Below are positions 19,318 through 34,321 of a stretch of DNA of 37,090 nt, one piece after another. Within the stretch, counting starts at the first letter, position 1; the number at the start of each line of letters is the position of its first letter. The notes under the pieces are model-generated. The model searched no databases. It was not told where the DNA came from and saw only the letters and a program-made list of their open reading frames with translations. The position numbers were made by a program, and so were the translations under genes. The DNA is taken from assembly GCA_012517145.1 (NCBI GenBank), contig JAAYVM010000200.1, positions 1 to 37,090 on the forward strand. Reading direction: 5' to 3'. The DNA comes from Acholeplasmataceae bacterium (GTDB taxonomy: Bacteria; Bacillota; Negativicutes; Acidaminococcales; Acidaminococcaceae).

Positions 19318-20232
19318 TCAGTCATTATTCTGGCAGCTGGCATCGCGTGGACCTTGCATCATATGTTTGTGCATGCCGTCTTTCGGTCCGAAGTGCTTGC
19401 CTTCTTTAATGTTTTGCAGAATTTTATCTGCCTGATCCTGAGACATTCTGCCGTCAGCTACCGCTTTATCGAGATTTCCTTTGGCTAATTCAAGGTGTTT
19501 GGCCATGAATTGGTCATAAACACCTGCATCTTTAGCAATTTCACGGATAGGTTTATGGTTGGTACGAGCTTCTTCTTTAATGCTTTCTACATCACGGCCT
19601 GTTAAGTCTGCCAGTATTTTAGCATTTTCTTCACGCATCACGCCAGGGCCCTTGTGCATACCAGGTGCGCCCATTGGTCCGAAGTGCTTGCCTTCTTTAA
19701 TATTTTGCAGAATTTTATCTGCCTGATCCTGAGACATTCTGCCATCAGCTACTGCTTTATCAAGATTTCCTTTGGCTAATTCAAGGTGTTTGGCCATGAA
19801 TTGGTCATAAACACCTGCATCTTTAGCAATTTCACGGATAGGTTTATGGTTGGTACGAGCTTCTTCTTTAATGCTTTCTACATCACGGCCTGTTAAATCT
19901 GCCAGTATTTTAGCATTTTCTTCACGCATTATGCCAGGACCCTTGTGCATACCGCCAGGTCCCATATGCTGACCGCCAAAGCCCTTGTGCATTTGGCCTT
20001 TTCCATAACAATCGCCCATACCTGGTCCTTGTTTTTGCCCAGGATATTGAATTTTGCCTACGCTGTCATTGCCGGCATTTCTTTCCTGGATTGACTGCTG
20101 AACTAAATTGCGCATTTTGTGTGGGTTTTGATCATAGTCGCTTGTGCTTGCTGAAGTTGCTGCAAAAACGGTAGAAGCACCAAGAGCAGCAATAAGGGTA
20201 CCAATAACCAGAGCTGATTTCATTTTTTTCAT
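19318..20232 (-). CDS. Periplasmic/secreted protein with two near-identical 97-residue repeats and His/Met-rich linkers
   Basis: This 304-residue protein has a clear signal peptide (MKKMKSALVIGTLIAALGA, cleavage after VFA). A Gly/Met/His-rich segment (GQMHKGFGGQHMGPGGMHKG) follows, then two copies of a 97-residue unit that differ at one residue (GIM against GVM). Each unit contains ILADLTGRDVESIKEEAR and a helical stretch ending in MSQDQADKILQNI. This resembles the DUF2680/YckD type and, loosely, Spy/CpxP-like envelope proteins. The His/Met-rich linkers could bind metal. It lies divergent to a two-component system, which may regulate it. AAGGAG precedes the ATG. The biochemical role is unknown. 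Confidence 0.7.
   Translation of the reverse strand: MKKMKSALVIGTLIAALGASTVFAATSASTSDYDQNPHKMRNLVQQSIQERNAGNDSVGKIQYPGQKQGPGMGDCYGKGQMHKGFGGQHMGPGGMHKGPGIMREENAKILADLTGRDVESIKEEARTNHKPIREIAKDAGVYDQFMAKHLELAKGNLDKAVADGRMSQDQADKILQNIKEGKHFGPMGAPGMHKGPGVMREENAKILADLTGRDVESIKEEARTNHKPIREIAKDAGVYDQFMAKHLELAKGNLDKAVADGRMSQDQADKILQNIKEGKHFGPKDGMHKHMMQGPRDASCQNND
19385..19955 (-). repeat. Tandem 291-bp duplication inside the exported protein gene
   Basis: The segment starting GGTCCGAAGTGCTTGCC at 19385 recurs at 19676, 291 bp apart. I count eight differences over about 280 bp. All are transitions, and all give A or T in the N-terminal copy. The only amino-acid change is Val to Ile. Confidence 0.95.
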
Positions 20233-26559: not shown

Positions 26560-26713
26560 AAGGGAAGCATTTGTTGTGGGCTTAGCGGCTAAAAACTCTA
26601 AGCTCTGTGCGAGAATCAAGAAGAGCAAGCTTTAATAATGCATTCCTGCCCTGTTTAAATTTACACGTCAGAGGTGAACATACTTGTTTGAAATTAGTAA
26701 GAAAAGGAATTAC

Positions 26714-26759
26714 TTTTGTAGATTCCTACATATAAAACGAATACGACGTTCAATATAAT
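26714..26759 (+). promoter_or_regulatory. Activator-type promoter of the ato operon with TGTA-N6-TACA element
   Basis: TGTAGATTCCTACA (26717-26730) is an inverted repeat in a 24-bp block, TTTTGTAG..CCTACATATAAAA. TATAAT lies at 26754-26759, and the -35 region (TATAAA) is poor. The same block with the same 37-bp offset to the -10 precedes ackA. Centred near -42, it has the position of a class II activator site. Confidence 0.65.
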
Positions 26760-26793
26760 AAAGCTGTCAAAGAAAAAAGAGGAGGTGGTTGTT

Positions 26794-27453
26794 GTGGCCA
26801 AAATATTGAGTCCGGAGGAAGCAGTTAAATTAATAAGTTCCGATAGTTCAATTATGATCGGCGGCTTTGGCAATATAGGCAATCCTAAAAAAATGATTGA
26901 CTTGATTGCGGATACAGAACTTAAGAATTTGACAATTATTGCCAATGATTTAGGCACACCAAATGTCGGCCTGGGCAGATTGGTCAGGAATAGGCAAATC
27001 AAGCAAGCAATTGGCTCATATTTTACGTACAACACCGAAGCAGCAGAACTTTATTTTGAGGGAAAACTTAATTTGAAAATGATGCCTCAGGGAACATTTG
27101 CTGAGAGTATCAGGGCCGGTGGCTGCGGCATAGGCGGTTTTTATACGCGTGTTGGTGTCGGCAGTGACGTTACGGAAGGTGCGGAAACCAAAGAGATCAA
27201 TGGCCGGAAATATGTTTTTGTCGAACCGCTCAAGGCAGATTTCGCAATTTTGCGTGCCAGGAAAGCGGACCGCCTGGGTAATCTGGTTTACGAAAGGACG
27301 GCCAGGAATTTCAACCCGATTATGGCGACAGCTGCTAAATTTACTATTGTAGAAGTAGACGAAATTGTGGAACCGGGCACTTTGTCGCCGGAAGAAATCG
27401 TAACACCGTTTATTTATGTGGATGTTATTGTTCCCGTAGGAAGGGGCGAATAA
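26794..27453 (+). CDS. atoD: Acetoacetyl/acyl-CoA:acetate CoA-transferase, alpha subunit
   Basis: This 219-residue alpha subunit of a class I CoA-transferase has the conserved IMIGGFGNIGNPKKMID glycine-rich start (~19-35) and GCGIGGFYTRVGVGS (~111-125). It pairs with the beta subunit encoded 2 bp downstream to move CoA from acetyl-CoA to acetoacetate or another short acid. GTG 26794 is chosen because GGAGG lies 8 nt upstream; an in-frame GTG at 26785 overlaps that site. First gene of atoD-atoA-thiolase-atoE. Substrate is inferred from the thiolase and AtoE context. Confidence 0.9.
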   Translation: MAKILSPEEAVKLISSDSSIMIGGFGNIGNPKKMIDLIADTELKNLTIIANDLGTPNVGLGRLVRNRQIKQAIGSYFTYNTEAAELYFEGKLNLKMMPQGTFAESIRAGGCGIGGFYTRVGVGSDVTEGAETKEINGRKYVFVEPLKADFAILRARKADRLGNLVYERTARNFNPIMATAAKFTIVEVDEIVEPGTLSPEEIVTPFIYVDVIVPVGRGE

Positions 27454-27455
27454 AA

Positions 27456-28133
27456 TTGAGACAGCTGACAGATACTGAAATAAGAACACGGATTGCTAAA
27501 AAGGTTGCCGAATTATTGCCGGATGGCGGCTTTGTCAATTTGGGCGTCGGCATTCCTACACAAGCTGTGAATTATCTTTCGCCTGCTAAAAAGCTCTACA
27601 TACAGACAGAAAATGGCATGCTCGGAGTAGGTCCGGCACCCAAAACAGAGGCTGATATAGTTCCTAATCTGATTAATGCCAGCAGACAGCCCATTACTGA
27701 AACACCTGGCTGCTGCTATTTTGACAGCGCAACTTCTTTTGCGATGATCAGGAGCGGAAGAATGGATGCGACAGTCATTGGTGCCATACAGGTCAGTGAA
27801 CGTGGTGATCTGGCTAACTGGGCGTTGCCTGGTAAGGGTGTCTTAGGACCAGGCGGAGCAATGGATCTGGTTGTGGGCGTCAAAGACGTAATTGTTGCTA
27901 CACAGCATGTTGCCAACAACGGCAAGCACAAGCTGGTGGAAAATTGTACCGTTCCCATTACCGGGTTGGAAGTCGTCAATACGTTGGTAACTGAATTCGC
28001 GGTATTCAAATTCATAAACAAGGAAATGATTTTGGTTGAACATTCATCCGATGTAACATTAGATGATATTAAAGCTATGACTTCCGCCAAATACACGGTT
28101 GCGAACGATGTCAAAGCCTGGGAGGTTGATTAG
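27456..28133 (+). CDS. atoA: Acetoacetyl/acyl-CoA:acetate CoA-transferase, beta subunit
   Basis: This 225-residue beta subunit has the catalytic glutamate in the ENGMLGVGP motif (~49-57) and GGAMDLV near residue 133. The glutamate forms the covalent glutamyl-CoA intermediate. Start is TTG, 2 bp after the alpha subunit stop, with AGGGGCG upstream. Its stop codon directly abuts the thiolase ATG, so all three are tightly coupled. Length and motifs are normal. Confidence 0.92.
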   Translation: MRQLTDTEIRTRIAKKVAELLPDGGFVNLGVGIPTQAVNYLSPAKKLYIQTENGMLGVGPAPKTEADIVPNLINASRQPITETPGCCYFDSATSFAMIRSGRMDATVIGAIQVSERGDLANWALPGKGVLGPGGAMDLVVGVKDVIVATQHVANNGKHKLVENCTVPITGLEVVNTLVTEFAVFKFINKEMILVEHSSDVTLDDIKAMTSAKYTVANDVKAWEVD

Positions 28134-29321
28134 ATGAAACAAGTTGTAATTATAGACGCCATCAGGACACCAATCGGCAAACTCAACGGTGCCATGAAAG
28201 ACATTCAACCAGAGAATATGGCAGCCCTTCTCATTGCTGAAATGGTGCAGAGAAATAATATCAATACCCAGGAATTAAACTCAATTGTGCTGGGTCATGC
28301 GAAACAAAGCTCAGACCAACCGAATATCGCAAGGCTTGCTTCTCTGATAGCAAACCTGCCGATAGAAGTTCCGGCTTACACTGTTCACAGGCAATGCGGT
28401 TCTGGTATGCAGGCGGTACATAACATAGCACAGGAAATGATGTGCGGTTATGCTGAACTGGGGCTTGCCGGCGGCGTGGAAAGTATGAGCAATGCTCAAT
28501 ACTATTTAAGAAACGCACGCAGAGGCTATTCTGTTGGCAATGGCGTGTTGCTTGATCCGAATACCGAAAGCCAGCCACGGTCACAGCCCATAGATCAATA
28601 TGGTTCTCTGACTATGGGGATGACGGCAGAAAATATAGCAGAAAAATACAATATTTCCAGACAGGAACAGGACGAGTTTGCCTGCGAAAGCCAGGTAAAG
28701 ACAAATAGTGCAATCTTAAACGGAACTTTTAAAGACGAAATTATGCCGGTTCCTATTGTGAGCAGGAAACAAACAGCGTTGTTCGAAGTTGATGAACACC
28801 CGCGCCTTACCTCCATGGAGGAACTGGCAAAATTGAAAGCGGTTTTCAAGAAGGATGGCACAGTTACCGCAGGCAACGCCTCAGGCCGCAATGACGGAGC
28901 GGCACTATTGCTTCTGGCTGAGGAAGAAAAAGCCAAGCAGCTTGGGCTGAAGCCTATGGCCAGGATTATTTCACAGGCGGCGGCCGGGGTATCACCTGCC
29001 TATATGGGTTTGGGCCCTATTCCAGCAACACAGATAGCTTTGAAAAGAGCAGGACTGACAATAGACGACATTGGTCTCGTAGAGTTGAATGAAGCTTTTG
29101 CCGCACAATCATTAGGTGTCATTCAAGAATTAGGACTTAACAGGGAAATAGTCAATGTTAACGGCGGAGCCATTGCTTTAGGTCATCCGATTTGTTGTTC
29201 CGGTGCGCGCATTCTGGTAACATTAGTACATGAAATGAAGCGGAGAAATGTGCGTTATGGTTTGGCTACCTTGTGTATAGCCGGCGGCTTGGGCACAAGC
29301 ACGGTTGTTGAGTTAATCTAA
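28134..29321 (+). CDS. atoB: Acetyl-CoA acetyltransferase (thiolase)
   Basis: This 395-residue thiolase has nucleophile Cys88 in HRQCGSGMQAV, His351 in GHP and Cys381 in LCIAGGLGTS, the complete catalytic triad at classical positions. It cleaves acetoacetyl-CoA with CoA to two acetyl-CoA. The motif after His351 reads GHPICCSGAR, where the family usually has Gly at residue 354, so Cys354 is an unusual change next to the active site. Gene order with the CoA-transferase and AtoE supports the degradative direction. The start abuts the atoA stop. Confidence 0.92.
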   Translation: MKQVVIIDAIRTPIGKLNGAMKDIQPENMAALLIAEMVQRNNINTQELNSIVLGHAKQSSDQPNIARLASLIANLPIEVPAYTVHRQCGSGMQAVHNIAQEMMCGYAELGLAGGVESMSNAQYYLRNARRGYSVGNGVLLDPNTESQPRSQPIDQYGSLTMGMTAENIAEKYNISRQEQDEFACESQVKTNSAILNGTFKDEIMPVPIVSRKQTALFEVDEHPRLTSMEELAKLKAVFKKDGTVTAGNASGRNDGAALLLLAEEEKAKQLGLKPMARIISQAAAGVSPAYMGLGPIPATQIALKRAGLTIDDIGLVELNEAFAAQSLGVIQELGLNREIVNVNGGAIALGHPICCSGARILVTLVHEMKRRNVRYGLATLCIAGGLGTSTVVELI

Positions 29322-29346
29322 GGTTAAAAAACAGGAGGCGAAAATA

Positions 29347-30663
29347 ATGGAAGCAATTACCAGGTTTTGTTTAAAGATGGTTCAGAAATACCTTCCGGGA
29401 GCATTTCTCCTAGCAATTTTTCTTACCTTTGTTACCTTTATTGCAGGCATAGTCATTACAGGCAAGTCCGTAAGCGCAATGGTCAATTATTGGGGTAACG
29501 GTTATTCCTCTCTCTTTACTTTTGGCATGCAGATGGTTTTGGTACTGTTAACCGGTTATGTACTTGCTTTAACACCGGTGGCAAAAAAAATCTTGGATAA
29601 AGTTACCGACATTCCTAAGAGTCCGAAACAGGCTTTGGGTCTGACTGCACTCGTTTCTCTGATTTCCTGCTATCTTAACTGGGGCTTCGGCCTTGTTATC
29701 GGTGCCATACTGGCCAAGGAAATGGGCAAAAAAGTCAAAGGCCTGCATTTCCCACTGCTCGTTGCCGCAGCTTATGGCGGTGAAATCGTTCGCGGTCCAT
29801 CTTCATCAATTCCACTTGTTGCTGCTACCCCTGGCAACTTCATGGTTAAGCTCGGTGTGCCTCTGATTCCTGTAACAGAAACCCTTTATTCTTCCTGGAA
29901 TATTCTTCTGTCATTGGCAATTGCCGCAGCATTGTTCCTCGTGTATTTCCACATGAAGGCTCCGGATGGCGTAATGGTTGAATATGTCGACAAGGAAGTG
30001 CCTAAAGCAGCTCCGAAAGAAAAGAAAGACATGACACCGGCCGAAAAACTAGAGCATTCTTATTTAATTAATCTCCTCTTCGGTCTTCTCCCTCTTTCTT
30101 ATCTCGTCCTTAATTTCGCGAAAATCGGTTTTAACCTCAACCTTAACTTAGTTGTTCTTATTTTCCTGACTGCAGGATTACTTCTTCATAAGAGCCCAAG
30201 TGCCTATCTGGATGCCGTAGGTCAGGCTATCGGCGCTTGCCGTGGCATCATTCTCCAATTCCCGCTTTATGCAGGAATTTCAGGCATGATTATCGGCTCC
30301 GGCATGGTTGCTGTTTTGTCTAACGCTTTTGTCAGTATTTCAACTCCCCATACTTTCCCACTCTTTACTTTCTTGTCCGCAGGTCTTGTAAATATCTTCA
30401 TCCCTTCCGGTGGTGGTCAATGGGCAATCCAAGGTCCAATCATGATGGAAGCAGCGCAAAAACTTGGTGCAGACATACCGCAGACCATCATGGCTTTTGC
30501 CTGGGGTGATGGTTGGACCAACCAGATTCAGCCGTTCTGGGCACTGCCGCTCTTGGGTGTTGCCGGTCTTGGCGCCAGAGATATCATGGGCTACTGCGTA
30601 ATCTGGACGGTAGTTTCCGGACTAATTATCAGCGGAACATTCTTGATCCTAAGTTTCTTGTAA
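29347..30663 (+). CDS. atoE: Short-chain fatty acid transporter AtoE
   Basis: This 438-residue integral membrane protein has about ten to twelve hydrophobic segments and the family-typical NIFIPSGGGQWAIQGPIMMEAA (~350-371). A hydrophilic loop rich in Lys/Pro lies near residues 215-232. AtoE carriers import acetoacetate, butyrate or related acids. It is last in the ato operon, 25 bp after the thiolase, with GGAGG upstream. Its codon use (more CTC, TTC and CTT) looks somewhat different from its neighbours, possibly reflecting membrane-protein expression. A terminator follows at 30740. Confidence 0.92.
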   Translation: MEAITRFCLKMVQKYLPGAFLLAIFLTFVTFIAGIVITGKSVSAMVNYWGNGYSSLFTFGMQMVLVLLTGYVLALTPVAKKILDKVTDIPKSPKQALGLTALVSLISCYLNWGFGLVIGAILAKEMGKKVKGLHFPLLVAAAYGGEIVRGPSSSIPLVAATPGNFMVKLGVPLIPVTETLYSSWNILLSLAIAAALFLVYFHMKAPDGVMVEYVDKEVPKAAPKEKKDMTPAEKLEHSYLINLLFGLLPLSYLVLNFAKIGFNLNLNLVVLIFLTAGLLLHKSPSAYLDAVGQAIGACRGIILQFPLYAGISGMIIGSGMVAVLSNAFVSISTPHTFPLFTFLSAGLVNIFIPSGGGQWAIQGPIMMEAAQKLGADIPQTIMAFAWGDGWTNQIQPFWALPLLGVAGLGARDIMGYCVIWTVVSGLIISGTFLILSFL

Positions 30664-30739
30664 AAAATAAAATAAATAATGTTAAAAAGGAAGTACTGTG
30701 TTAAATATCATAGGATAATTACTTTTAGAAACTAAAGGT

Positions 30740-30773
30740 AAATGGGCCCGCTTAGCAAACGGGCCCATTTTTT
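30740..30773 (+). terminator. Intrinsic terminator of the ato operon
   Basis: AAATGGGCCCG (30740-30750) and CGGGCCCATTT (30760-30770) form an 11-bp perfect stem followed by TTT. It separates atoE from the ackA promoter. Confidence 0.85.
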
Positions 30774-30813
30774 ATCTGTATTTTGTTTGTTGGTGCAAAA
30801 ACAGAGTTAGTTA

Positions 30814-30859
30814 TTTTGTAGATTTATACATATGAAAGATAATAGCTAATTTATATAAT
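30814..30859 (+). promoter_or_regulatory. Activator-type promoter of ackA with the second TGTA-N6-TACA element
   Basis: TTTTGTAGATTTATACATATG at 30814-30834 matches the element upstream of atoD at nearly every base. TGTA...TACA lies at 30817-30830 and TATAAT at 30854-30859, again 37 bp after the element start. The -35 region (TATGAA) is poor, as expected for an activated promoter. Confidence 0.65.
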
Positions 30860-30915: not shown

Positions 30916-32124
30916 GTGAAGATATTTGTTTTGAATTGCGGTAGTTCATCAATTAAATACCAGCTGGTTGAAAATGACAGCAAAAAAGTCTTGGCTAAAG
31001 GTGTTTTAGAAAGGATTGGCATGGCAGGAAGCTTTCTTAAGCATTATTCTGTTTATGATTATGCTGTAGAACTTAAAAAGCCCGCTCATAATCATACGGA
31101 AGGTATTCAGCTAATCTTGAAAGCGCTGGTTGATAATAAGATTGGTGTTATTAAAAATTTGTCGGAAATCAGTGCTTTTGGACATAGGGTAGTGCATGGC
31201 GGCGAGGCTTTTCGAGAAGCAATTATAATAACAAAAAATGTTATAGACGATATTAAAAAGTGCATTCCGATGGCACCACTCCATAACCCTGCCAATCTCG
31301 CAGGCATCGAGGCTTGCATGGGTTTGATGCCAAATGTTCCTCATATTGCGGTTTTTGATACTGCTTTTCATCAAACGATGCCGGCTAAAGCATACTTATA
31401 TGGATTGCCTTATGAACTGTACATCAAATATGGATTGCGAAAATATGGGTTTCATGGTATTTCTCACCAATATGTCGCAGACATGGCTGCAAAATATTTA
31501 GGCCGCAATTTATCAGATTTGCGGCTCGTAACCTGTCATTTGGGCAACGGAGCGAGTGTAGCCGCAGTCAAAGGCGGCGAATCAATAGATACAAGCATGG
31601 GTTTCACTCCTCTGGAGGGCCTTGTGATGGGTACGAGGTGCGGAGAAGTAGATCCGGCTATTATACCGTTTATCATGGACAGAGAGGATATGACTGGCAA
31701 GCAGGTATATCAATATCTGAATAATAAAGCCGGTGTACTGGGAATATCCGGCCTTTCCAGCGATTTCCGCGATCTGGAAAAAGCTGCTGAGTGCGGGGAT
31801 GAGCGGGCACAGCTCGCAATGGATATCTTCTCATACCGCGTCAAAAAATACATCGGTGCTTATGCAGTGGCAATGGGTGGAGTAGACGCAGTAATCTTCA
31901 CAGCCGGTCTCGGAGAAAATTCGCCAGTTATAAGAAAGAATATCTGCAGCGGTTTGGAGTTTTTGGGCGCACATTTGGACACGGAAAAAAACAATTTACG
32001 CGGTGAGATAAGAGAAATAGGCTCATACGGTGACGCAGTCAAATTGCTGGTCATTCCAACCAATGAGGAAATGGTTATTGCAGAGGAAACTGCCAGACTT
32101 TGCGCAAATGTTGTAACGTTATGA
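30916..32124 (+). CDS. ackA: Acetate kinase
   Basis: This 402-residue ASKHA-fold kinase has signature 1 FVLNCGSSSIKYQL at the N-terminus, FGHRVVHGG (~90), FDTAFHQTMP (~149), YGFHGISHQYV (~178), HLGNGASVAAVKGGES (~207) and FTAGLGENS (~327). It converts acetyl phosphate and ADP to acetate and ATP. Start is GTG, with AAGGGG upstream. Being in the ato island with PduL in place of Pta, it likely serves the ATP-yielding end of acetoacetate breakdown. A second, housekeeping copy elsewhere is possible. Length is normal. Confidence 0.95.
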   Translation: MKIFVLNCGSSSIKYQLVENDSKKVLAKGVLERIGMAGSFLKHYSVYDYAVELKKPAHNHTEGIQLILKALVDNKIGVIKNLSEISAFGHRVVHGGEAFREAIIITKNVIDDIKKCIPMAPLHNPANLAGIEACMGLMPNVPHIAVFDTAFHQTMPAKAYLYGLPYELYIKYGLRKYGFHGISHQYVADMAAKYLGRNLSDLRLVTCHLGNGASVAAVKGGESIDTSMGFTPLEGLVMGTRCGEVDPAIIPFIMDREDMTGKQVYQYLNNKAGVLGISGLSSDFRDLEKAAECGDERAQLAMDIFSYRVKKYIGAYAVAMGGVDAVIFTAGLGENSPVIRKNICSGLEFLGAHLDTEKNNLRGEIREIGSYGDAVKLLVIPTNEEMVIAEETARLCANVVTL

Positions 32125-32189: not shown

Positions 32190-33725
32190 ATGGCACAAGA
32201 CAGGGTAACTCTTAACGCATTAATGGAGATTGAGAATTTTAGGAATAAACTGCGTCTTGCTAACAAAAATGCCAATCTTGATTACCAGATAACCCATGTT
32301 ACAATTATGGAAGGGCCTGACCTTTATGAATGGGTCACAGGCGGAGAGTTCGTTTTAACTACTTTCTATGCTTTCAGTAAGAATCCCGAGCTTCAGGACT
32401 ATGCTTTTGAAAGGCTGGCGCAAAGGGTGTCGGCTGTAGGTATTAAGACACATAGGTTTATCGAAAAGATTCCCGAAAGTATTCTTGCTATCGCAGATAA
32501 ATACAGATTGCCGGTTTTTGAGGTCAAAAAAGAAGTAAAATTCCGCGAGCTGGTTGCGACAATCAATCAGGAAATCCAGAACTATCAGACTAATATGCTG
32601 ATAGAAGTTGAACAGCACTACCAGAAGCTGATCAGGGCATCACTCAGTTCGGATGATGTCAACAATCTTTTGAATGTATTTGGCAAACAGATAAGAATGA
32701 ACTGTTTTTGTCTCAATTACCAATTTAAGCTTAATGGCACTTACGGCTTGCCTGGGACAAAAAGACAGGATTTTATTGATTGGGTCAATATCATAAAGGA
32801 TCGGCTTGCCGAAGGAATTGATACTTCTGCCGGCCACATTGTGGAAAATCTGCATATTTTTGACTGTTATGCCCGAGGCAGACTTATCGGCATGTTAGTT
32901 GTAGTTTGTGATGGCGATCTTCCGGAAAAAATCAGGTTGATGTGCCAGCAGGCTGCTTCCTTTATATCAATAAAAATGTGGGACCAATATGAAACCAATA
33001 AGAAAGCACTTGCAAAATTCTGGCAGGAAGTCAAGGACGGAACAATCACTGATGATGAAGAGATTGCTGACGGCTTAGCCCGTTTTGGGCTTAGCAATCA
33101 AAATAATTATGGTATGGTCTTGGTCTCCAAGCATGCCAACGCGAATGAAATATATCAGTATCTGAAGAGTAATTTTAATGAAAGTATTTTCATTGATGAA
33201 GGCAAGAGCATTGTTTTATTGTGCCAGCAGAAAGAGTTTGCACATTTTGAGGGTAAACTTGCGGACTATATTAAAACCTTGCCTAATAAAACTTTGATTG
33301 TCGTTAATTCCGAAGCTATAACGCCAGCCGGTTTCAGTAAACAGTTTTCTTTGGCAGAGCAGTCAATGGAGGTTTTCAGGAGACGCGGGATCCATGGTAT
33401 TGCGTATGCCGAGAGTTGTACGCCTTTCAGTATTATCCTGCGGGCGCGCAATACTCCTGAGTATGAGTATTTGTGTGATAAAATCTTGTTTCCTTTGCTT
33501 AGATATGATAAAATTTATCAATCCAATTTAATGGATACTCTGAGCTGTACTCTGATGACAGACAGTTTGGAGTGTACGGCCAAAGAGTTAAATATACATA
33601 TTAATACTCTGCGGTACCGCTTAAAAAAAGTCTATGAAATTACAGGGAAGGATTATTTTAAGCGCAGGGATAGATATTTTCTGCACATGGTTGCATCAAT
33701 CCAGGAGTTGGAGAATTTCAAATAG
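32190..33725 (+). CDS. PucR-family transcriptional regulator
   Basis: This 511-residue regulator has an N-terminal PucR-type sensory domain (~10-125, with GPDLYEWVTGGEFVLTTFY) and a long middle region. The C-terminal HTH_30 domain (~450-508) contains CTAKELNIHINTLRYRLKKVYEITG. PucR-family proteins are usually activators of catabolic genes. It lies between ackA and pduL in the acetoacetate island, so it is the best candidate to bind the twin TGTA-N6-TACA elements. GGAGG precedes the ATG. Its effector is unknown; acetoacetate or another short acid is inferred. Confidence 0.88.
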   Translation: MAQDRVTLNALMEIENFRNKLRLANKNANLDYQITHVTIMEGPDLYEWVTGGEFVLTTFYAFSKNPELQDYAFERLAQRVSAVGIKTHRFIEKIPESILAIADKYRLPVFEVKKEVKFRELVATINQEIQNYQTNMLIEVEQHYQKLIRASLSSDDVNNLLNVFGKQIRMNCFCLNYQFKLNGTYGLPGTKRQDFIDWVNIIKDRLAEGIDTSAGHIVENLHIFDCYARGRLIGMLVVVCDGDLPEKIRLMCQQAASFISIKMWDQYETNKKALAKFWQEVKDGTITDDEEIADGLARFGLSNQNNYGMVLVSKHANANEIYQYLKSNFNESIFIDEGKSIVLLCQQKEFAHFEGKLADYIKTLPNKTLIVVNSEAITPAGFSKQFSLAEQSMEVFRRRGIHGIAYAESCTPFSIILRARNTPEYEYLCDKILFPLLRYDKIYQSNLMDTLSCTLMTDSLECTAKELNIHINTLRYRLKKVYEITGKDYFKRRDRYFLHMVASIQELENFK

Positions 33726-33751
33726 CTTAATTGAAAAGGAGTGACTTGCAA

Positions 33752-34321
33752 ATGAATTTTCCGTTAATATTAGGCGTTTCTGCCAGACATTTGCATCTGA
33801 GTGCAAGTGATATGGCAAAGTTGTTTGGTGAAGAAGCAGAACTGCATCCCAAAAAGTATATAAAACAGCCTGGGCAGTATGCCGCTGAAGAGCAAGTTAC
33901 TTTGGTAACAGCTAAGGGTAAAATGAATTTGCGTGTAATTGGACCTTTGCGTAAAGCAACACAAATTGAACTTTCCATGACTGATGCCAGAGCGCTTGGG
34001 CTGACACCACCAATCAGGATTTCCGGTGATATTGATAATTCTGCTGGCGGCCGTCTTATTGGACCCAAGGGAGAAGTTGAACTTGAGAAAGGTATTATTA
34101 TTGCAGCCAGACATGTTCACCTATGTCCGGCAACTGCCGCCGAATATGGCTTGAAGAATGGTGATGTGGTCAATGTCAAAACCACGGGCGAAAGAAGCCT
34201 GACTTTCCACGATGTACCAGTGAGAACAGGCGAAGAGCATGCCGATGAATATCATATTGATACGGATGAAGCAAATGCCTGCGGTTTGGTTACAGGCGCA
34301 ATTATTGAAGTGAGTAAATAG
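33752..34321 (+). CDS. pduL: PduL-type phosphate acyltransferase
   Basis: This 189-residue phosphotransacylase of the PduL family exchanges CoA for phosphate on acetyl- or propionyl-CoA. Metal-binding histidines are visible in SARHLHLS (His13, His15), AARHVHLC (His121, His123) and EEHADEYHID (His163, His168). There is no N-terminal encapsulation peptide, so it should be cytosolic rather than in a microcompartment. ATG 33752 is chosen because AAAGGAGTG lies 8 nt upstream, 26 bp after the regulator stop. With ackA it completes acetyl-CoA to acetate plus ATP. Confidence 0.9.
   Translation: MNFPLILGVSARHLHLSASDMAKLFGEEAELHPKKYIKQPGQYAAEEQVTLVTAKGKMNLRVIGPLRKATQIELSMTDARALGLTPPIRISGDIDNSAGGRLIGPKGEVELEKGIIIAARHVHLCPATAAEYGLKNGDVVNVKTTGERSLTFHDVPVRTGEEHADEYHIDTDEANACGLVTGAIIEVSK

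Follow-up and report, generated by a model that had tools for sequence, protein, structure and literature searches.

The ato operon of Escherichia coli is controlled by AtoS-AtoC, a two-component system that works with sigma-54. In the present study, we describe another arrangement around ato-type genes, found in a stretch of 37,090 nucleotides (the window, meaning the whole stretch of DNA analysed; contig JAAYVM010000200.1 of assembly GCA_012517145.1, family Acidaminococcaceae, numbered G000 below), in which twin sequence blocks precede atoD and ackA, and a PucR-type regulator is encoded beside them. Both systems comprise ato-type genes, whereas the window has a one-component PucR-type protein and sigma-70-type -10 elements. 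A similar local PucR-type activator is GabR of Corynebacterium glutamicum, which activates gabTDP. Two inverted repeats immediately before the -35 of its target operon serve as its sites, and strong binding requires both of them according to the available part of PMC7652997. GabR differs from the window protein in lacking a GGDEF-like domain such as the model suggests for the latter, in being encoded divergently from its target and in serving GABA genes; its repeat is 21 bp long, with letters that were not compared with those of the window sites, which are proposed from sequence alone. AdeR and PutR of Bacillus subtilis, PucR-family activators cited in the same part of PMC7652997, have inverted-repeat operators of 24 bp and 17 bp; they share this operator type with the window but target amino-acid catabolism, and their site sequences were likewise not compared. 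The window protein resembles B. subtilis PucR in having PF07905 and HTH_30, and differs in that the latter controls purine catabolism through an operator reported as not palindromic in that part of PMC7652997. With the terms searched, the open-access literature yielded no report that connects ato genes to a PucR-type regulator. The regulon and the motif appear to be new. Local activators that use operators at -42 and upstream of it are a familiar kind of system.

Several findings have been obtained for this locus. First, the two promoters share one element in one geometry, as the initial annotation had claimed. The features are as follows.

26714-26737, plus strand: block 1, 24 bases, reading TTTTGTAGATTCCTACATATAAAA
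30814-30837, plus strand: block 2, 24 bases, reading TTTTGTAGATTTATACATATGAAA
26714-26733, plus strand: predicted proximal operator before atoD, centred at about -42.5, with the sequence TTTTGTAGATTCCTACATAT (TGTAG-N4-CTACA as inverted repeat)
26754-26759, plus strand: -10 element TATAAT of the atoD operon
30814-30833, plus strand: predicted proximal operator before ackA, centred at about -42.5, with the sequence TTTTGTAGATTTATACATAT (TGTA-N6-TACA)
30854-30859, plus strand: -10 element TATAAT of the ackA-pucR-pduL operon

The blocks are identical at all 21 specified positions of 24. A search of the window with up to three mismatches to the block pattern returned two matches, both of them the twin blocks, with 0.01 expected by chance, and two matches were obtained in 0 of 100 shuffles of the window. 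In both promoters TGTA (26717 and 30817) starts 37 bp before TATAAT, and the -35 sequences are weak, as had also been stated, the best hexamer scoring 3/6 for atoD and 4/6 (with a 16-bp spacer) for ackA. A feature absent from the initial annotation is that each block is an inverted repeat, TTGTA-N6-TACAT, seen as TGTAGATTCCTACA at 26717 and TGTAGATTTATACA at 30817, i.e. TGTA-N6-TACA, with its centre at -42.5 if transcription starts 7 bp past the -10 element. The general palindrome is by itself unexceptional (14 one-mismatch matches versus 12.5 expected), and what stands out is the full block. Throughout the genome (2.47 Mb, 220 contigs), the best match to the 20-base form after the twin sites has three mismatches. 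With a site whose centre, as counted from the predicted start sites, is -42.5 and thus near -41.5, a weak -35 and a good -10, the two promoters have the features of class II activated sigma-70 promoters.

Second, the site co-occurs with the regulator among the 59 family genomes. Three of these encode a full-length PucR orthologue, namely G000 itself, G022 (76% identical) and G032 (about 50%), and four further genomes have weak partial matches only. The pattern TTTTGTAGRTTNNTACATA without mismatches occurs at four sites, twice in G000, once before ackA in G022 and once before atoD in G032, so that the genomes with exact sites are the same three that encode the orthologue. The motif search upstream of ato and ack genes in relatives that the initial annotation had suggested found the blocks conserved, with exact sites at ato/ack promoters exclusively. 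The -10 element lies at offset 37 in the relatives too (TATAAT in G022, TATACT in G032). AtoD is encoded in three genomes (G000, G032 and G010), all of which have an exact or one-mismatch site before the ato operon; the ato promoter of G022 is not visible because its contig begins inside atoA. In G010, the near-exact site TTTTGTAGATTAGTCCATAT, with one mismatch, stands before thl-atoDA and adjoins a pduL gene, whose counterpart in the window comes directly after pucR. When these five promoters (atoD and ackA of G000, ackA of G022, atoD of G032 and thl-atoDA of G010) were aligned on TGTA, the 20-base site proved 85% identical on average and the -10 element 80%, compared with 32% for the spacer and 36-40% for the flanks. 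The retention of site and -10 element while spacer and flanks diverge argues against a recent promoter copy and for selection on the site, the -10 element and the distance between them. Allowing two mismatches across the family yields mostly background, a reversed control giving similar counts, and therefore only matches with no or one mismatch were interpreted. The five one-mismatch matches (L025, L026, L029, L036 and L040) and the two-mismatch match L041 were inspected, and only L026, in G010, lies before ato genes. Across the class (380 genomes), the pattern combined with a -10 element gave 10 matches in nine genomes, four of them the ato/ack sites; the control gave 11 matches, so the number of the six matches elsewhere, among which the place in G014 was inspected individually, fits background.

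Third, a second and weaker site is found upstream of the proximal one. In the window, the two distal sites are as follows.

26684-26699, plus strand: predicted distal operator before atoD (weak), with the sequence TTGTTTGAAATTAGTA, lying 32 bp upstream of its proximal partner; position weight matrix score -1.0, without significance when taken singly
30783-30798, plus strand: predicted distal operator before ackA, with the sequence TTGTTTGTTGGTGCAA, lying 33 bp upstream of its proximal partner

The scoring matrix was symmetrised and built from the five proximal sites alone. A position 32-33 bp upstream has the best or second-best matrix score at all five promoters, in the form of a weak copy, TTGT-N8-nCAA, on the same helix face as the proximal site. 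Taken singly, the distal sites are weak, the p values of the best upstream score ranging between 0.04 and 0.63. None of 3000 dinucleotide shuffles equalled their joint score of 13.0 (maximum -5.2), and neither did any of the 5000 sets of five real intergenic 70-mers from each of two pools, among which the maximum was 8.2, in the A+T-rich pool. The result does not depend on a position fixed in advance, because the null may choose any offset. As an addition to the initial annotation, the operator would comprise two inverted repeats at a distance of three helical turns.

Fourth, the same pair recurs beside distant homologues of the regulator. At E 1e-40 or better, nine genomes of the class contain 10 PucR homologues, eight of which adjoin atoDA and/or thiolase genes (G000, G022, G032, G088, contig C16 of G288, G293, G302 and G317); the remaining two are a second G288 protein near an atoE-like gene only and a G300 protein near no ato gene. 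Those beside ato genes in five other families are 29-32% identical. All eight ato-linked proteins share H-x-N-T-x-R-Y-R in the region of the recognition helix, whereas the two others have S-T or S-S in place of N-T. A search of the phylum (398 genomes) added two weak homologues, in G409 and G623, neither of them adjoining ato genes. When distant regions were scored with the near-site matrix, 32-33 bp was the best among spacings from 17 to 60, and 0 of 1000 shuffles did as well at any spacing; six of eight distant regions entered this test, the two left out being those upstream of pucR in G302 and upstream of thl in G288, which had no site above 0. To cover other gaps in the loci, nine ato loci and 11 others were scanned whole and unselected. 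The pair beside ato or pucR ranks first in eight of the nine ato loci, with scores of 14.9 to 25.8, and the top pair in the 11 others scores 1.8 to 12.0. The independent part of the nine-locus count is the five distant loci, because the four near loci supplied the matrix. In G088, which belongs to another family, the pair stands before atoD with 33 bp between its sites and is followed by TATTAT at offset 37 from the proximal site, near which there are two other hexamers matching at five of six positions. The complete layout, from the distal site to the -10 element, is thus retained in this genome. As a separate observation, three operator-like sites stand in a row before atoD in this genome (L059, 4398-4478), at spacings of 33 and 32 bp.

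The protein has the domains of the PucR family, with the PucR N-terminal domain PF07905 at 96.3 bits (gathering threshold 33.5) and HTH_30, PF13556, at 43.6 bits (27). The NCBIfam model for AdeR matches the C-terminus over the helix-turn-helix (HTH) only, at 48.8 bits against a cut-off of 700, and no GGDEF-like Pfam family was reported at E 0.001. A structure model computed from eight sequences (pLDDT 83.4, pTM 0.51) suggests a make-up of PucR, GAF-like, GGDEF-like and HTH parts. Foldseek matched it to 9f80, a C-terminal fragment of MabR (E 1.9e-08), and to 3onq, a C-terminal fragment of BAD_0249 (E 1.4e-06 to 2.7e-05), with TM-scores by query of 0.21-0.25, and to CodY structures at lower rank. 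In both of these solved fragments, a GGDEF-like domain adjoins the HTH. In the available part of PMC11617747, the HTH spacing of MabR fits one helical turn, or adjacent major grooves, and this distance matches what the 10-bp half-site spacing of the window operators demands.

We consider it probable, on the evidence of sites and gene neighbourhood, that the blocks are operators of one local activator, with the PucR-type protein (32190-33725) as the most likely binder. The initial annotation had postulated a common activator near -42, and this agrees with the inverted repeat, the fixed distance to the -10 element, the want of a proper -35 and the conservation of only the site and the -10. Its choice of the PucR-type protein as candidate also held up well: exact sites in the family are found only with the orthologue, most class homologues adjoin ato genes, the pair recurs beside the distant ones, and PucR-type activators with inverted-repeat operators adjoining the promoter are documented in the available part of PMC7652997. 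The tiny regulon, with two exact sites in the genome, fits a local regulator as well. Several observations weigh against this explanation. G010 is the exception to co-occurrence, in that a PucR orthologue was searched for and not found in its assembly, which is 86% complete; pucR may simply be missing from it, since the same incomplete assembly yielded no ackA and the contig starts inside pduL. Its site is also less perfect, with TAATAT at offset 37, yet several other hexamers score higher. The distal sites of G000 atoD (-1.0) and G022 ackA (-3.1) score weakly alone, and the distal position was spotted by eye, from a constant TTGT in the alignment, before being tested. In G317, the pair ranks second, with 10.9 versus 15.0 for a pair inside coding sequence. 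Finally, four genomes (G288, G293, G302 and G317) carry the pair at the pucR 3' end, with the strong site first and without a -10 element at 37 bp; the activation geometry is not conserved in these four genomes.

Among other explanations, the one that survives best is that another regulator binds the sites, for example an activator of the CRP/FNR type, whose half-sites lie one turn apart and whose class II position is -41.5/-42.5, and that PucR is only a neighbour. CRP-type operators have the half-site spacing of TGTA-N6-TACA, which here sits at the class II position, and the site in G010 stands in an assembly with no PucR orthologue. However, a global regulator should have many sites, and the genome has two exact ones and the next at three mismatches; moreover, exact sites track the orthologue across the family, and five other families show the pair again next to distant ato-linked pucR genes. 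We therefore regard this explanation as unlikely. It is still less likely, and we would call it improbable, that the sites do bind the PucR-type protein, which then either keeps the operons repressed as long as inducer is absent or both represses and activates. According to the available part of PMC7652997, B. subtilis PucR has both of these roles, and the position of the pair in the four genomes with a 3'-end arrangement is not that of an activator; however, the strong site in the window abuts the -35 position of promoters without a good -35, a classical activator arrangement, and all other PucR-type regulators named in that part of PMC7652997 are activators. A recent duplication of promoter DNA without any regulator, or chance similarity, is very improbable, for although both blocks lie within 4.1 kb of one island, flanks and spacer are only 32-40% identical, the retention of the site by both promoter types separately in other genera contradicts duplication, and the low number of matches expected in the window contradicts chance.

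Under the preferred explanation, namely activation by the local PucR-type protein, the two promoters would serve the following genes.

26785-27453, plus strand: atoD-like gene, 3-oxoacid CoA-transferase subunit A
27456-28133, plus strand: atoA-like gene, 3-oxoacid CoA-transferase subunit B
28134-29321, plus strand: thiolase gene (acetyl-CoA C-acyltransferase family)
29347-30663, plus strand: atoE-like gene, short-chain fatty acid transporter
30740-30770, without assigned strand (listed for the minus strand): terminator-like 14-bp hairpin, AAATGGGCCC..GGGCCCATTT, between atoE and ackA, parting the two operons
30916-32124, plus strand: ackA-like gene, acetate/propionate kinase, an extra copy
32190-33725, plus strand: PucR-type regulator, the proposed activator, PF07905 at the N-terminus and HTH_30 at the C-terminus, with GAF-like and GGDEF-like folds in the model
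33731-34321, plus strand: pduL-like gene, phosphate propanoyltransferase (phosphotransacylase)

Promoter 1 is predicted to drive atoD, atoA, the thiolase gene and the atoE-type transporter gene, and promoter 2 to drive ackA, pucR and pduL. In the closest relative (L006), a similar GGGCCCG hairpin is found at the place equivalent to 30740-30770. AtoDA and thiolase convert acetoacetate to acetyl-CoA, and PduL and AckA recover ATP as acetate forms. Both operons therefore belong to one pathway and would benefit from joint control; together, the two gene groups probably turn acetoacetate into acetate and energy. Herein, we propose that two dimers or a tetramer of the PucR-type protein would bind the operator pair when an inducer is present, which may be acetoacetate, acetoacetyl-CoA or a related short-chain acid. 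The regulator at the -42.5 site would touch RNA polymerase, so that atoDA-thl-atoE, for uptake and cleavage of acetoacetate, and ackA-pucR-pduL, for the ATP-yielding step, would be switched on together, with positive feedback on pucR. The sites, their geometry and conservation, the gene neighbourhood and the co-occurrence are shown by computation, and we infer from them which protein binds, in what oligomeric state and with what inducer, and that it activates the operons instead of repressing them. Such a regulon would be dedicated to the route from acetoacetate to acetate and would couple import, cleavage and ATP formation. For a family in which DNA targets are known for few members, the locus offers a concrete predicted operator with a spacing rule and a promoter geometry; the 32-33 bp pairing may give a handle on how PucR-type oligomers bind DNA, and the pattern should allow ato-type PucR regulons to be annotated in other genomes.

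Where the pair lies at the pucR 3' end, one arm of a terminator-like hairpin, TTCTACGA, forms the weak partner in G293, G302 and G317, and TTGTTATATTCTGCAA, upstream of the hairpin, does so in G288. A composite of the form TTGTN8ACAA-N22-27-TTCNACGAAG was found in four of the 380 class genomes, each time beside an ato-linked pucR (control, 1); the G288 match uses a third, further site. The composite elements (N24/25) overlap the terminator-like hairpin at the 3' end of ato-linked pucR in four families.

L060, 10638-10760: composite element
L061, 3344-3393, minus strand: composite element
L062, 10598-10647: composite element
L063, 5729-5779, minus strand: composite element

An antiterminator at this place, in which TTGTAGAA would pair with TTCTAC of the hairpin, was considered and not supported: on folding, only two of the four leaders pair, and weakly. 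A second operator at a distance of 32-33 bp accounts better for the bases concerned. A more tentative idea, which we hold to be rather doubtful, is that an old operator unit of two inverted repeats three helical turns apart travelled with the ato-linked PucR. In some families, it would sit at about -42.5 and -75 at ato and ack promoters, and it would have moved to the pucR 3' end in four others, where, in the three with the weak site inside the terminator hairpin, the regulator, once bound, could act on termination or on read-through into the downstream ato genes, one operator thus acting at two stages of transcription.

The ackA of the island is not the only copy in its genome. A full copy, 61% identical, is present on contig C88, and a third, partial copy, 82% identical and cut by the contig end, is present on contig C24 (L097, 9090-10479), where a second pduL (71%) comes immediately after it and no pucR intervenes. 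This ackA-pduL arrangement may represent a paralogous locus or contamination of the assembly. On contig C88 (L099), the left arm TTTTGTAGATT occurs upstream of ackA at 606, without a matching right arm, and may be a chance occurrence or a remnant. Elsewhere in the window, a minus-strand open reading frame of 304 amino acids (19318-20232) contains a long, near-identical internal repeat in which EENAKILADLTGRDVESIKEEARTNHKPIREIAKDAGVYDQFMAKHLELAKGNLDKAVADGRMSQDQADKILQNIKEGKHFGP occurs twice.

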